NCBI GenBank assembly: GCA_905221615.1
Contig: CAJNDT010005334.1
Location: 354,501-418,500, forward strand
DNA from: Symbiodinium sp. CCMP2592
Lineage: Eukaryota; Sar; Dinophyceae; Suessiales; Symbiodiniaceae
Direction: 5' to 3'
Length of the DNA: 64,000 nt
Positions 22,876 to 37,334 of the stretch are shown piece by piece; position 1 is the stretch's first letter; each line of letters begins with the position of its first letter. The position numbers and the translations under genes are program-made. A model generated the notes under the pieces. It searched no databases, was not told the origin of the DNA, and saw only the letters and a program-made list of their open reading frames with translations.

Positions 22876-22885
22876 CCCAGAGGAC
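22876..22885 (+). repeat. Left terminal inverted repeat
   Basis: CCCAGAGGAC, perfect complement of 37325-37334 in inverted order. It is preceded by the TT target duplication and followed by CGCCGATTGAAAAAAATCAA. Confidence 0.85.
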
Positions 22886-22894
22886 CGCCGATTG

Positions 22895-23160
22895 AAAAAA
22901 ATCAAGCGCGATTGAAAATTCTCAGCGTTTTGATTGTCATTGTCGATCAAAATCAATAGAAAACGATGTTTTTCAATAGAAATTTAAATCCTCAAAATCA
23001 ATAGAACTGCGACATAAAAATCAATAGAAACCTCCACATCAAAATCAATAGAAAATCTCCATAAAATCAATAGAAATTTTCCATAAAATCAATAGAAATT
23101 TTCCATAAAATCAATAGAAATTTTCCATAAAATCAATAGAAATGTTATCTCAAATCAAAC
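22895..23160 (+). repeat. Left subterminal repeat array
   Basis: At least ten copies of AATCAATAGAAA, the central ones as a 21-22 bp tandem AAAATCAATAGAAATTTTCC. The right end (37045-37240) has the same array in the same direct orientation. Transposase-binding sites in CACTA elements are clustered this way; that function here is inference. Confidence 0.9.
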
Positions 23161-23516
23161 GAGAAACACTTCTGACATCAATAGATTTCAGCGCTATCTC
23201 TGCCTCCACCACTATATATAATACCTCTACCTCGACCTCAACCTGTACCTTTATCCGTATCTCTGCCTGTATATCTCTACCTTTACATCTTTACTTCTTT
23301 ATCTCTCTATCGCTGTATATCTCTCTATCGCTCTACCGCTCTATCGCTCGATCTACCGCTCTACCGCTCGGTCGCTCTATCTCTCTATCTCTTATATCTC
23401 CCTGTCTCTCTATCTCTCCATCTCTACCTGTATTTTTATTTCTATATATCTATCTCTTTCTTTTTTCTCTTTCTCTATCTCTCACTTTCTCTTCCCCACC
23501 CTTTCCCAGAAGGCTT

Positions 23517-23832
23517 CCAGCCTAACACTTCTTTTTCACAGCAGCGGCAGGGAATCTTGGGTGAAGCTTCTTTCGAGCTCTCCTTCGAAACTTGGCCTTG
23601 TAAAGGCCTCGGAGCCTAACTTTCAAAAACGGTTCCTGGCTACTTGGGCTTGGACGTGGAATTGGACTCAGGCATTCCAGCCTAACACTTCTTTTCCACA
23701 GCTGCGGCAGGGAATCTTGGGTGAAGATTCTCTTGAGCTCTTCTTCAAAACTTGGCCCTAGAGGCTTGGAGCTTACCTTTCAAAAAGAAGCTCCGGGCTA
23801 CTTGGGCTTGGACTTGGTATTGGACACTGGCA
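23517..23832 (-). repeat. Two tandem ~162-bp units at the element's left interior
   Basis: 23518-23678 and 23679-23832 share CAGCCTAACACTTCTTT, GGCAGGGAATCTTGGGTGAA and CTACTTGGGCTTGGAC. The inner copy overlaps the end of the leftmost exon (ELLFER), so a 3' exon or 3' UTR may have been duplicated. The pyrimidine-rich stretch 23200-23510 between this and the array is CTCTATCT-like low complexity. Confidence 0.85.
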
Positions 23833-24255
23833 GCCCGCATGGCTGCAAGCCGTCCCTGTCGGGTTTTGCTTGATGATCATTTTTTGAATCGGGGACAAAA
23901 AATCCCAAACGAGAAGGTGACCCGGCGGAGCTTCCGCTTCAGCTTCCTGTGAGGGGTCGTGGTAAAAGTCAGGCTCCTCTGGCCACTCCTTCATGGCCTG
24001 CTCAAAGTCACTCTGAGTGATCGGAGGGTCATACATGCCCAAGACCATCGTTTCCTGGCTCAGGCTCACGTTGTCCGGGCTCTGGTTTGGCCCCTTGGCC
24101 ATGGTCTCGGCAGCTTGGCAAGCTTCCCAAACGGCTTCCAGACCTCCATCCGAGTTGTCTTCTTCCTGCAGATCTGTTTCGGCGTAAGGGTTTAAAAGCT
24201 GGTTATGAGGGTATAGGGGTTCACATCTATCTATCTATATATATATATATATATA
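23773..24255 (-). CDS. Exon of an unrecognised transposon gene
   Basis: The minus-strand frame is open from the TA-rich intron end near 24235 down to a stop at 23773. It encodes CEPLYPHNQLLNPYAETD, an acidic segment LQEEDNSDGG, then PPITQSDFEQAMKEWPEEPD and a tail rich in Ser/Pro. I do not recognise the family. It probably forms one gene with the Lys/Ala-rich exon upstream (24268-24735), the two being separated by an intron carrying a TA microsatellite; splice sites there are not certain. The last codons fall in the 162-bp duplication. Confidence 0.5.
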
Positions 24256-24263
24256 TATATACA
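24227..24263. repeat. TA/CTAT microsatellite inside an intron
   Basis: CTATCTATCTATATATA... tract between the two exons of the leftmost transposon gene. Confidence 0.9.
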
Positions 24264-24267
24264 AAAT

Positions 24268-24735
24268 CTATATATCGCACTGAAAGAATCCCGCCTCGAG
24301 AGCAAAGCAGGTGGCGGCTGCAGGCCTCTTGGCTGTCGTCTCTGCCGGAGTCTCCAAGGTGGCGTCTGGCCTCTTGACTGTCGTCTCTGCCGAAGTCTCC
24401 AAGGTGGCGGCTGGCCTCTTGACTGTCGCCTTTGCAGAAGTCTCCAAGGTGGCGGCTGGCCTCTTGGCTGTCGTCTCTGCAGGAGTCTCCAAGGTGGCGG
24501 TTTGGCTCTTGGGAGCTTGGCCACTGGAGGTCGTGGAAGTCGCAGGTCTTTTCTTGACGACCTTGACCTTGACGACGGCCTCCTTGTCTGCGAGCTTGGC
24601 AGCTGGCTTCTTCGAGACCGGGGCCTGTCGAGGCACAGCCAAAACTTCAAAAAACAGACTTAAGCTCGACAAGCTCACAGGCAAGTATCTGGCCTGCCGT
24701 GCGGCCGGCTTCTTCTGGCTTCCTACTTTTGCCAT
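24268..24735 (-). CDS. Lys/Ala/Thr-rich repeat protein exon (transposon gene)
   Basis: An ATG at 24735 opens MAKVGSQKKPAARQARYLP. After KKPAAK and KVKVVKKRPAT segments come four tandem 15-residue units of the type KRPAATLETSAETTV (45-bp DNA repeats, about 24310-24505). Basic, low-complexity proteins with KKPAA runs are common in dinoflagellates and suggest DNA or chromatin binding, which is inference. The frame runs into the TA intron (FFQCDI) so the true exon probably ends near 24290. It is the last or second-last gene before the left end and lies about 230 bases downstream of the transposase stop. Confidence 0.6.
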   Translation of the reverse strand: MAKVGSQKKPAARQARYLPVSLSSLSLFFEVLAVPRQAPVSKKPAAKLADKEAVVKVKVVKKRPATSTTSSGQAPKSQTATLETPAETTAKRPAATLETSAKATVKRPAATLETSAETTVKRPDATLETPAETTAKRPAAATCFALEAGFFQCDI

Positions 24736-35785: not shown

Positions 35786-36041
35786 TCAGCGTACTATGAA
35801 AAAAAACTTCAGCTCAGGTCCTCTTCTCGCCAAGTCAATTTTGCACGTCAAGCAGGGCTTGATCGATCTCGGCTTGAATTATACCCTGGCAGTAGCCTGC
35901 CCTGGATTAGCACTTGAATTAAGCCGCTTCTAACAAAAACGCCCCCTTGAATTTTTGAACCTGGGACGGCGCGGAAGCGGCAGAATCTCTGCCGCCTCGA
36001 CACTTTCCTATGTTCTCAAAACTTGAGGCTTGTCCTGGAGC

Positions 36042-36537
36042 TCACCTCCCAGCCGCCTGGCACTGGTCAGATCCTGGGACCTGGCGCACGGGCGGCTCAG
36101 TTTCAAAAAAATGCAGCCCTGAATCCCGGTCGATGCCTGGGTTTGCTTGGAGAGCGATCAATGAAGCATCGTTGAGCAACAACCGGATGTACCCGTGCTC
36201 CTTCATCTTCATGTGCTTCGTCGCCTCCGGCCAGCGCTCGGGGTCGATCTCCATATCATTCTCGATCTTGTACATGAGGTACTCCAAAAAGTTCAGGAAG
36301 CCCACTTCCTTGTCGACATCCCTTAGCTCTACATACCTAAAAAATAGATACATAGTCTATATAAGTACGGCATATGTATAAGTATATATATATATATGTG
36401 TTCATGCCAAGAATCTCCAGCTGGTCTAGGTAACCTCTCCGCCACATCACGACCAAGGACCTCGCGACCTTGCCTGGAACCTTGGCGTGAAGCAGCTTGG
36501 CATAGGCCTGGACGACAATTTCATCATCGCCCTGCAT
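36042..36537 (-). CDS. Unrecognised two-exon transposon gene, 138 residues
   Basis: Exon 1 is 36537-36408, starting at ATG (MQGDDEIVVQAYAKLLHAKV) and ending at a GC donor (CTTG/GCATG). Exon 2 is 36328-36042, after TATGTAG. The joined length, 417 bases, is a multiple of three, and the junction restores LEIL-ELRDVDKEVGFLNF. The protein is helical and charged, with SLVVMWRRGYLDQLE, YLMYKIENDMEIDPERWPEA and HGYIRLLLNDASLIALQA. The 79-bp intron contains a TA microsatellite. It is the first gene inside the right end of the element. No known domain. Confidence 0.65.
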
Positions 36538-36754
36538 CTTGACCTAGCCCAAAGTTCCTGGCAGCTTGGCTTGAAGACGGCTGCCATGCACGAGATTTGA
36601 AGCATGATTCCCCCCCTTCTTCCTTCTTAGGGCCGTCCGGCCCCTGGAAGCTTTGGTTTCAAGACGGCTGCCATGCACGAACCTGCCAAAAATGATTCCC
36701 CCGCCTTCTCCCTTCGTGGGGCCGTCCGGCCCACATCCCATCTCTTCTGTCCGT

Positions 36755-36982
36755 CTCCTCCGTCTCCTCCGTCTCCTCCGTCTCCTCCGTCTCTCTGTCT
36801 CTCTGTCTCTCTGTCTCTCTGTCTCTCTGTCTGTCTGTCTCTCTCTCTCTCTCTCTCTCTCTCTCTCTCTCTCTCTCTCTCTCTCTCTCTCTCTCTCTCT
36901 CTCTCTCTCTCTCTCTCTCTCTCTCTCTCTCTCTCTCTCTCTCTCTCTCTCTCTCTCTCTCTCTCTCTCTCTCTCTCTCTCA
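36755..36982 (+). repeat. CTCCGT then CT microsatellite
   Basis: CTCCGTCTC units (to 36790), GTCTCTCT and GTCTGTCT, then about 140 bases of pure CT. Ser/Leu and Glu/Arg frames across it are artefacts. Confidence 0.97.
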
Positions 36983-37044
36983 TTGTATACATTATTTGGT
37001 TAGCAAATTGGGGCCGCCCGGGCCGTCGTTTCAGCTTGAAGCTG

Positions 37045-37245
37045 GTGATTGAAATCAATAGAAACATCCACCTCAAAATCAATAGAAAATCTCCATAAAA
37101 TCAATAGAAATTTTCCATAAAATCAATAGAAATTTTCCATAAAATCAATAGAAATTTTCCATAATCAATAGAAAGACCACGGTTAAAATCAATAGAAGTC
37201 AACACTCAAAATCAATAGAAACATGTACAAACAAAAGTTCCAAAC
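37045..37245 (+). repeat. Right subterminal repeat array
   Basis: At least nine copies of AATCAATAGAAA, including three perfect 21-bp units, matching the left array in direct orientation. From 37290 to 37324 come two CAAGCG/CGATTGA motifs, as at the left end. Confidence 0.9.
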
Positions 37246-37324
37246 GATTGAAATTTCCTCAAATTCAATAGAAGTTTCGTGTGCCCTCAAAATCAAGCGG
37301 CCGATTGAAAAAAATCAAGCGGGC

Positions 37325-37334
37325 GTCCTCTGGG
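37325..37334 (-). repeat. Right terminal inverted repeat
   Basis: GTCCTCTGGG, inverted relative to 22876-22885. It is followed by the TT target duplication and then LINE sequence. Confidence 0.85.

Follow-up and report, generated by a model that had tools for sequence, protein, structure and literature searches.

We analyzed a 64,000-nucleotide stretch of the Symbiodinium sp. CCMP2592 genome (contig CAJNDT010005334.1, positions 354,501 to 418,500 of the forward strand; hereafter the window, whose own coordinates are used throughout), in which a putative DNA transposon of 14,459 bp at 22876..37334 interrupts a long interspersed nuclear element (LINE). The limits of the element are given by exact tips, a TT duplication, the continuity of the LINE around it, and copies with the same ends elsewhere in the genome. 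The tips are 10-bp terminal inverted repeats, CCCAGAGGAC, located by pattern matching at 22876..22885 (plus strand) and 37325..37334 (minus strand), exact and with no other occurrence in the 64-kb window. Comparison of the flanks showed a 2-bp target-site duplication, TT, with its left copy at 22874..22875 and its right copy at 37335..37336; no match of 3 to 9 bp exists at the element's ends, where only the TT agrees. The exact inverted tips with TT on both sides, as reported in a preliminary description of this DNA, were thus borne out. By themselves these features prove nothing, since the window contains 735 ten-bp inverted pairs 10-20 kb apart, 48 of which (the element's pair included) have matching 2-bp flanks. 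Because such chance pairs are common, the case rests on the insertion site and on the other copies.

Both flanks of the element belong to a single minus-strand LINE, which gave RVT_1 matches (E 1.9e-7 and 2.9e-11). Its downstream part, reaching to the reverse transcriptase, is frame-broken and lies at 20269..22873 (RVT_1; tblastn with P0019 and P0022), and the upstream part of its open reading frame (ORF) lies at 37337..37975 (tblastn with P0018-P0021, 70-79% identity). Once the element and one TT are removed, the two halves share one reading frame; the continuity claimed earlier therefore stands, although an in-frame stop three codons past the joint (K-S-G-stop) had been omitted from that account. 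Five LINE relatives were found (P0018-P0022), and two of them, P0018 and P0019, test the joint: both align through it without a gap. The other three are not informative on this point, as P0020 and P0021 end near the joint and P0022 lacks that stretch. The termini of P0020 and P0021 coincide almost exactly with the element's site in the window LINE. We also searched the genome assembly (G000; 1.098 Gb in 5,383 contigs) with 120 bp of joined flank, and obtained three places: the two flanks in the window and a LINE paralog (G000:C691:712571), 78% identical, which crosses the joint without an insert. When the comparison was widened to 898 window bases, the alignment still showed no insert, only several small gaps, including a 4-bp gap at the joint. 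Neither the relatives nor the paralog that cross the site carry the tips there. The LINE reading frame shifts several times in the window, so that the LINE was, or became, dead.

The same ends were found at many other loci of the assembly. Using tip patterns of 33 bp in which one or two positions were left free, and reversed patterns as controls, we identified 82 exact left tips and 95 exact right tips, with none in the controls. Of the 82 left tips, 49 are matched by a correctly oriented right tip 14,157-15,144 bp away (median 14,844). The right tip was present in 19 of the first 20 copies fetched and missing in one, and when left ends were scored in the best 40 of 276 initial candidates, the window copy among them, all 40 gave a full-length match at 98-100%. 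We read the flanks of 50 end pairs (the first copies, 30 more, and the window): a perfect 2-bp duplication was present in 39 and a 3-bp duplication in none. Against an expectation of 1/16, this corresponds to a binomial P of about 2e-37, if the pairs are independent. Flanks are shared between copies in some of the pairs that have a duplication; among the 34 pairs in which both flanks are unique, 29 have the 2-bp duplication. The 39 duplications comprise 13 dinucleotides, with TA and TT the most frequent (8 each), and T (21/39) and A (19/39) are the commonest bases at the duplicated positions. At G000:C1668:384863-389426, a variant left tip and a correctly oriented right tip lie 4,564 bp apart, perhaps marking an internally deleted, non-autonomous copy. 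Searches of IMG/VR and of GTDB genomes with the element's DNA pattern returned no relative.

The copies are nearly identical. Among 29 copies other than the window's, the median pairwise difference across the first 1.78 kb or so inward from the left tip is 0.056%, and the window copy differs from them by 0.51%, gaps being ignored in both figures; the left flanks of two of the 29 recur in another copy. Over 1.3 kb of the transposase region (see below), 67 of 190 pairs among 20 other copies show no substitution (median 0.15%, largest 3.5%), and the window copy is 0.68% from the others. These figures describe the youngest copies, since the best matches were taken first (40 of 276 scored). Such close copies, inserted at many sites with target duplications, support the recent activity that had been proposed, and point to a very recent burst of elements of about 15 kb, of which the window copy is a slightly older insertion, into the LINE.

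On the minus strand, at 24972..26862, the element carries a transposase gene with introns, of the type found in the CACTA/EnSpm-Mirage-Chapaev-Transib (CMCT) clade, recognized by homology to P0001 and its relatives. In tblastn, P0001 matches four blocks (26584-26859, 26259-26576, 25483-26151 and 25014-25376), with a frame change between the first two; stitched from 26862 down to 24972, the exons give a transposase-like protein of about 573 amino acids. Seventeen relatives were retrieved with the window protein as query and 14 with an alignment, P0001 being found by both. The five that could be assigned to a species all come from Symbiodiniaceae (Durusdinium trenchii, Symbiodinium microadriaticum, Symbiodinium sp. 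KB8 and CCMP2592, and Cladocopium goreaui), as does the single LINE homolog with a species name, in agreement with the earlier proposal of a dinoflagellate element. No relatives of the transposase were found in IMG/VR or in GTDB genomes, as expected for viral and prokaryotic collections. In a tree of 15 proteins, the window transposase groups with P0001, P0023, P0024 and P0026 (support 99/96). Across the genome, 73 of the first 90 matches to the transposase exon lie within 6 kb of an exact left tip (median 2.6 kb), in the expected orientation.

The conserved residues of these proteins follow a fixed order: an aspartate (D), a second D, a CxxC 19 residues on, an HxxxH, and a glutamate (E) 19 residues further. 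When the window protein was aligned with 21 relatives, the second D and both cysteines proved invariant (22/22), and the first D is present in all 20 rows that cover it. The two histidines are found in 15/16 and 14/16 of the covering rows and the E in 15/18; the three rows without it are short proteins (387-437 amino acids) whose ends do not align there. The spacing from D to C is 19 residues in all 23 relatives (of 30) that bear the D motif, and that from the second H to E is 19 in the 11 where both were found; P0011 has an E in place of the second H. The D-to-E distance is 255-276 residues in the dinoflagellate proteins.

The frame change in the window copy falls between 26584 and 26576, within a first exon that its relatives read in one frame. 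We examined this exon in the 20 other copies fetched, 5 of which have runs of N reaching into it. When the remaining 15 were compared with P0001 by tblastn, 13 read it in one frame (12 covering residues 6-205 and one 21-202) and 2 did not. Since the frame is broken where the relatives and 13 of 15 copies read through, the transposase of the window copy is probably defective by frameshift, barring sequencing error, and other copies look intact at this exon. The exon with the second D and CxxC has no stop in 86 of the first 90 genomic matches (96-100% identity) and a stop in 4.

A second family of elements is present in the same genome, represented by at least 27 matches at 47-48% identity in the transposase exon, many with equal scores. 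Its 12-bp tips, CCCAAAGGCTCT, are similar to those of the first family; the near end, CCCAAAGGCTCTCCGATTGATTTTTTTCGAGCG, was obtained by comparing copies within the 48% family, and the far end, CCCAAAGGCTCTTCGATTGATAATTATCGATCG, with a degenerate tip pattern (among the matches listed, the first of 231). Four end pairs delimit elements of 14.7, 15.5, 25.2 and 16.9 kb, of which three have a 2-bp duplication (TA, AA and TG). A stretch of contig C347 encodes residues 330-495 of P0005 (Symbiodinium sp. CCMP2592) at 100% identity, which identifies P0005 as the predicted transposase of this sister family. Tips and transposase go together in two diverged families. Another, smaller group of transposase sequences, about 45% identical (on contigs C1, C1408, C2737 and C920) and with several near-identical copies, possibly represents a third related family.

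The two ends of the element also share subterminal structure. Just 3 bp inside each tip lies an identical, quasi-palindromic 20-mer, CGATTGAAAAAAATCAAGCG, at 22889..22908 and 37302..37321; these are its only two copies in the window, on the same (plus) strand and equally distant from their tips. Further inwards are two arrays of the motif AATCAATAGAAA, at 22951..23142 and 37053..37221, each with 8 matches (at most one mismatch) and mostly of 22-bp period, a spacing of about two helical turns. The ends can be aligned as direct repeats over 125 bp of the arrays, with 2 mismatches and one 2-bp gap. Subterminal arrays at both ends had been described before; their orientation turned out to be direct and not inverted, as all 8 + 8 motifs lie on the plus strand.

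Besides the transposase, the element contains further ORFs on the minus strand. The one beyond the transposase toward the left tip, at 23776..24234, seems to travel with it, because the S. microadriaticum protein P0006 fuses pieces of transposase to a relative of this ORF (63% identity over 57 residues; P0006 residues 320-376 against 23911-24081). A 45-bp tandem repeat at 24309-24512 lies within a minus-strand ORF and encodes repeats such as ATLETPAETTAKRPA. A probable accessory gene with several exon-like blocks occupies 27314..28982; its block 28023-28982 matches no Pfam family above cut-off (HSP90, at E 0.0072, is under it). More exon-like ORFs are spread over 31552..36543 (31937-32827, 33543-33899, 34799-35785 and 36045-36543), and the scanned ones among them likewise match no Pfam family above cut-off. 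A Pfam scan of ten ORFs found no family past its cut-off, and an accessory ORF had no relative in IMG/VR. Several minus-strand ORFs have a codon-position GC pattern like that of the transposase and the LINE. With a codon-usage score trained on these two genes of the window, 12 minus-strand stretches scored 0.07-0.54 versus 0.07-0.24 for 8 plus-strand stretches; support was weakest at 30340-31300, where nothing stands out. ORF totals on the two strands, 7,762 vs 7,138 codons in overlapping frames, favour neither. The scores of the two strands overlap, leaving a moderate case for accessory genes.

Outside the element, window positions 10001-16000 are G+C-poor (0.33-0.45 in five of six 1-kb steps) and contain several tandem repeat arrays, and a 254-bp tandem repeat (2.7 copies, 95%) is found at 17830-18522.

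Altogether, the element very probably belongs to the CMCT clade as a large DNA transposon of the cut-and-paste type, in a dinoflagellate lineage with CCCARAGG tips. A DDE transposase, folded round the CxxC/HxxxH zinc site, would cut both tips and join them to a target cut with a 2-bp stagger. The subterminal arrays, with their period of about 22 bp, would be bound by another protein encoded in the element, comparable to TnpA of En/Spm, and one of the accessory ORFs is a natural guess for this partner. The common direction of the arrays would give the two ends different identities, and copy number would rise as excision gaps are repaired from the sister copy. A bolder version, in which the dinoflagellate CMCT elements form a lineage of superfamily rank that Pfam does not represent, several parallel families of elements of about 15 kb, mobile today, fill Symbiodiniaceae genomes, and the one-way arrays give transposition a built-in polarity, is speculative and rather unlikely as a whole; we found no description of array-based polarity for CACTA elements.

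Several observations weigh against this interpretation. No Pfam transposase family matches the 22 aligned proteins (the best E, 0.0068, is to an unrelated family), Transposase_21 does not appear among the Pfam matches of 18 proteins (cut-off E 5) or of 22 proteins (cut-off E 10), and a sequence search of PDB gave no meaningful relative, only fragments of DnaJ and Fdc1 at E 0.09 or worse. Because neither Pfam nor PDB yields a sequence match, the element is placed in CMCT by its motif layout, its tips and the length of its duplication, and not by significant sequence similarity. The tips CCCAGAGGAC and CCCAAAGGCTCT are not the CA..TG termini of most, but not all, CMCT members (PMC12730594). Among the copies, 33 of the 82 left tips have no full-length right partner (none has one nearer than 13 kb, 8 have one at 18-52 kb, and 25 have none within 60 kb), and 11 of the 50 pairs show no duplication. 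Six of these 11 are chimeras: one of their flanks, and only one, recurs exactly in another pair, a pattern to be expected if copies recombined ectopically or the assembly switched between them. The other five are unexplained. In the sister family, the 16.9-kb pair is the one without a duplication.

The alternative that survives best is that the element belongs with the ordinary CACTA/EnSpm elements of animal TRC type, acquired by vertical descent or horizontal transfer, with a transposase that has drifted past detection by Pfam and no separate lineage deserving a name; we regard it as quite possible, if somewhat less than an even chance. TRC elements of Schistosoma mansoni (SmTRC1), Aedes and Tribolium have CCC tips, 2-bp duplications (7/14 SmTRC1 copies) and a 560-amino acid ORF, close to the 573 or so residues here, and the Aedes element, of 9.2 kb, has a 10-bp tip, CCCAGTCAAC (PMC1636069). 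Both the CCC tips and the duplication length are found in our element. In contrast, SmTRC1 is 4.5 kb long, has 54-bp tips and encodes a Transposase_21 domain (PMC1636069). Our element measures 14.5 kb, with 10-bp tips, subterminal arrays in direct orientation and additional ORFs, and none of the 22 aligned proteins matches that domain. The preliminary description had suggested a new lineage on the ground that tips and duplication differ from CACTA. They do differ from those of plant CACTA elements, yet they are shared with TRC and alone are not new (PMC1636069); a new lineage is nevertheless plausible, because no Pfam transposase family matches the aligned proteins.

The transposase-like gene could instead have been captured or domesticated, the true mobility protein being another ORF, of which the element has several coding-like ones on the minus strand without Pfam assignment, or coming from elsewhere. 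We consider this improbable, as the D-D-CxxC-HxxxH-E layout is conserved in the gene, and the sister family combines the same gene with the same kind of tips at only 48% exon identity. Even less probable is a spread of the copies by assembly duplication, segmental duplication or gene conversion. Two pairs with both flanks equal to those of another pair, and the six duplication-less pairs sharing one flank only, would fit such a route, which is refuted for the bulk of the copies by their unique flanks and duplications, since segmental copies would share flanks. Finally, chance inverted tips with no element at all, for which the many inverted pairs in the window might speak, are refuted by the many copies in the genome that have these ends and duplications of their own, and by the LINE paralog without an insert.

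DNA transposons of dinoflagellates are hardly characterized in the portions of the literature covered by our search, and for one family the exact ends, the length of the duplication, the transposase and the copies are now described. Because its transposase family has no Pfam model, the element would probably escape repeat annotation based on domains. Its activity can be tested directly in an alga that is maintained as a culture strain, and an active endogenous transposon could serve as a gene-delivery tool; such algae are hard to transform.

Several known systems can be set aside. Tc1/mariner elements duplicate TA, whereas 13 dinucleotides are duplicated here and TA in only 8 of 39. Polintons were dropped, as no matching gene appeared in the scan of ten ORFs; their tips and target duplication also differ from the element's. 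The 7 to 8-bp duplications of Kyakuja-Dileera-Zisupton (KDZ) elements and the TGT..ACA or CATCA..TGATG termini of Plavaka elements likewise disagree with the 2-bp duplication and the tips found here (PMC12730594). C(2)C and H(3-4)H motifs between the second D and the last E characterize the transposases of the CMCT clade, whose elements make target duplications of 2 to 5 bp (PMC12730594); both motifs occur in that interval in our proteins, and 2 bp is the duplication length in 39 of the 50 pairs. Fungal PlavakaA elements resemble ours in these motifs, in their 2-bp duplications and in belonging to the clade, and differ in their TGT..ACA termini and their host (PMC12730594).

The layout is also close to that of mouse RAG1 (D600, D708, C727, C730, H937, H942 and E962; PMC4914335): the distance from D to CxxC is 19 residues in both, that from the second H to E is 20 vs 19 here, and that from D to E is 254 vs 255-276. 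RAG1 has H(4)H where the dinoflagellate proteins have H(3)H, and no sequence similarity to PDB chains was found. Transib elements, considered together with RAG1, have longer target duplications. With plant CACTA/EnSpm elements (En/Spm, Tgmt*), our element shares short tips, subterminal arrays, large size, several genes, and the combination of a transposase with an array-binding protein, the latter presumed here (PMC2613891). It departs from them in its CCC tips instead of CACTA (CAC), in its 2-bp instead of 3-bp duplication (the latter in 0/50 pairs), in the lack of a match to the Transposase_21 / Tnp2 domain that also marks TRC, and in its motifs, which run one way only, whereas those of Tgmt* occur in direct and inverted orientation (PMC2613891). 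Our literature search, which did not extend to Repbase, where an entry may have been deposited, found no dinoflagellate element with these ends in the texts available. The reading we favour is a new dinoflagellate lineage within a known kind of element, in which what seems new is the lineage itself, a transposase family without a Pfam model, one-way arrays combined with the 20-mers, and a very recent burst of elements of about 15 kb.

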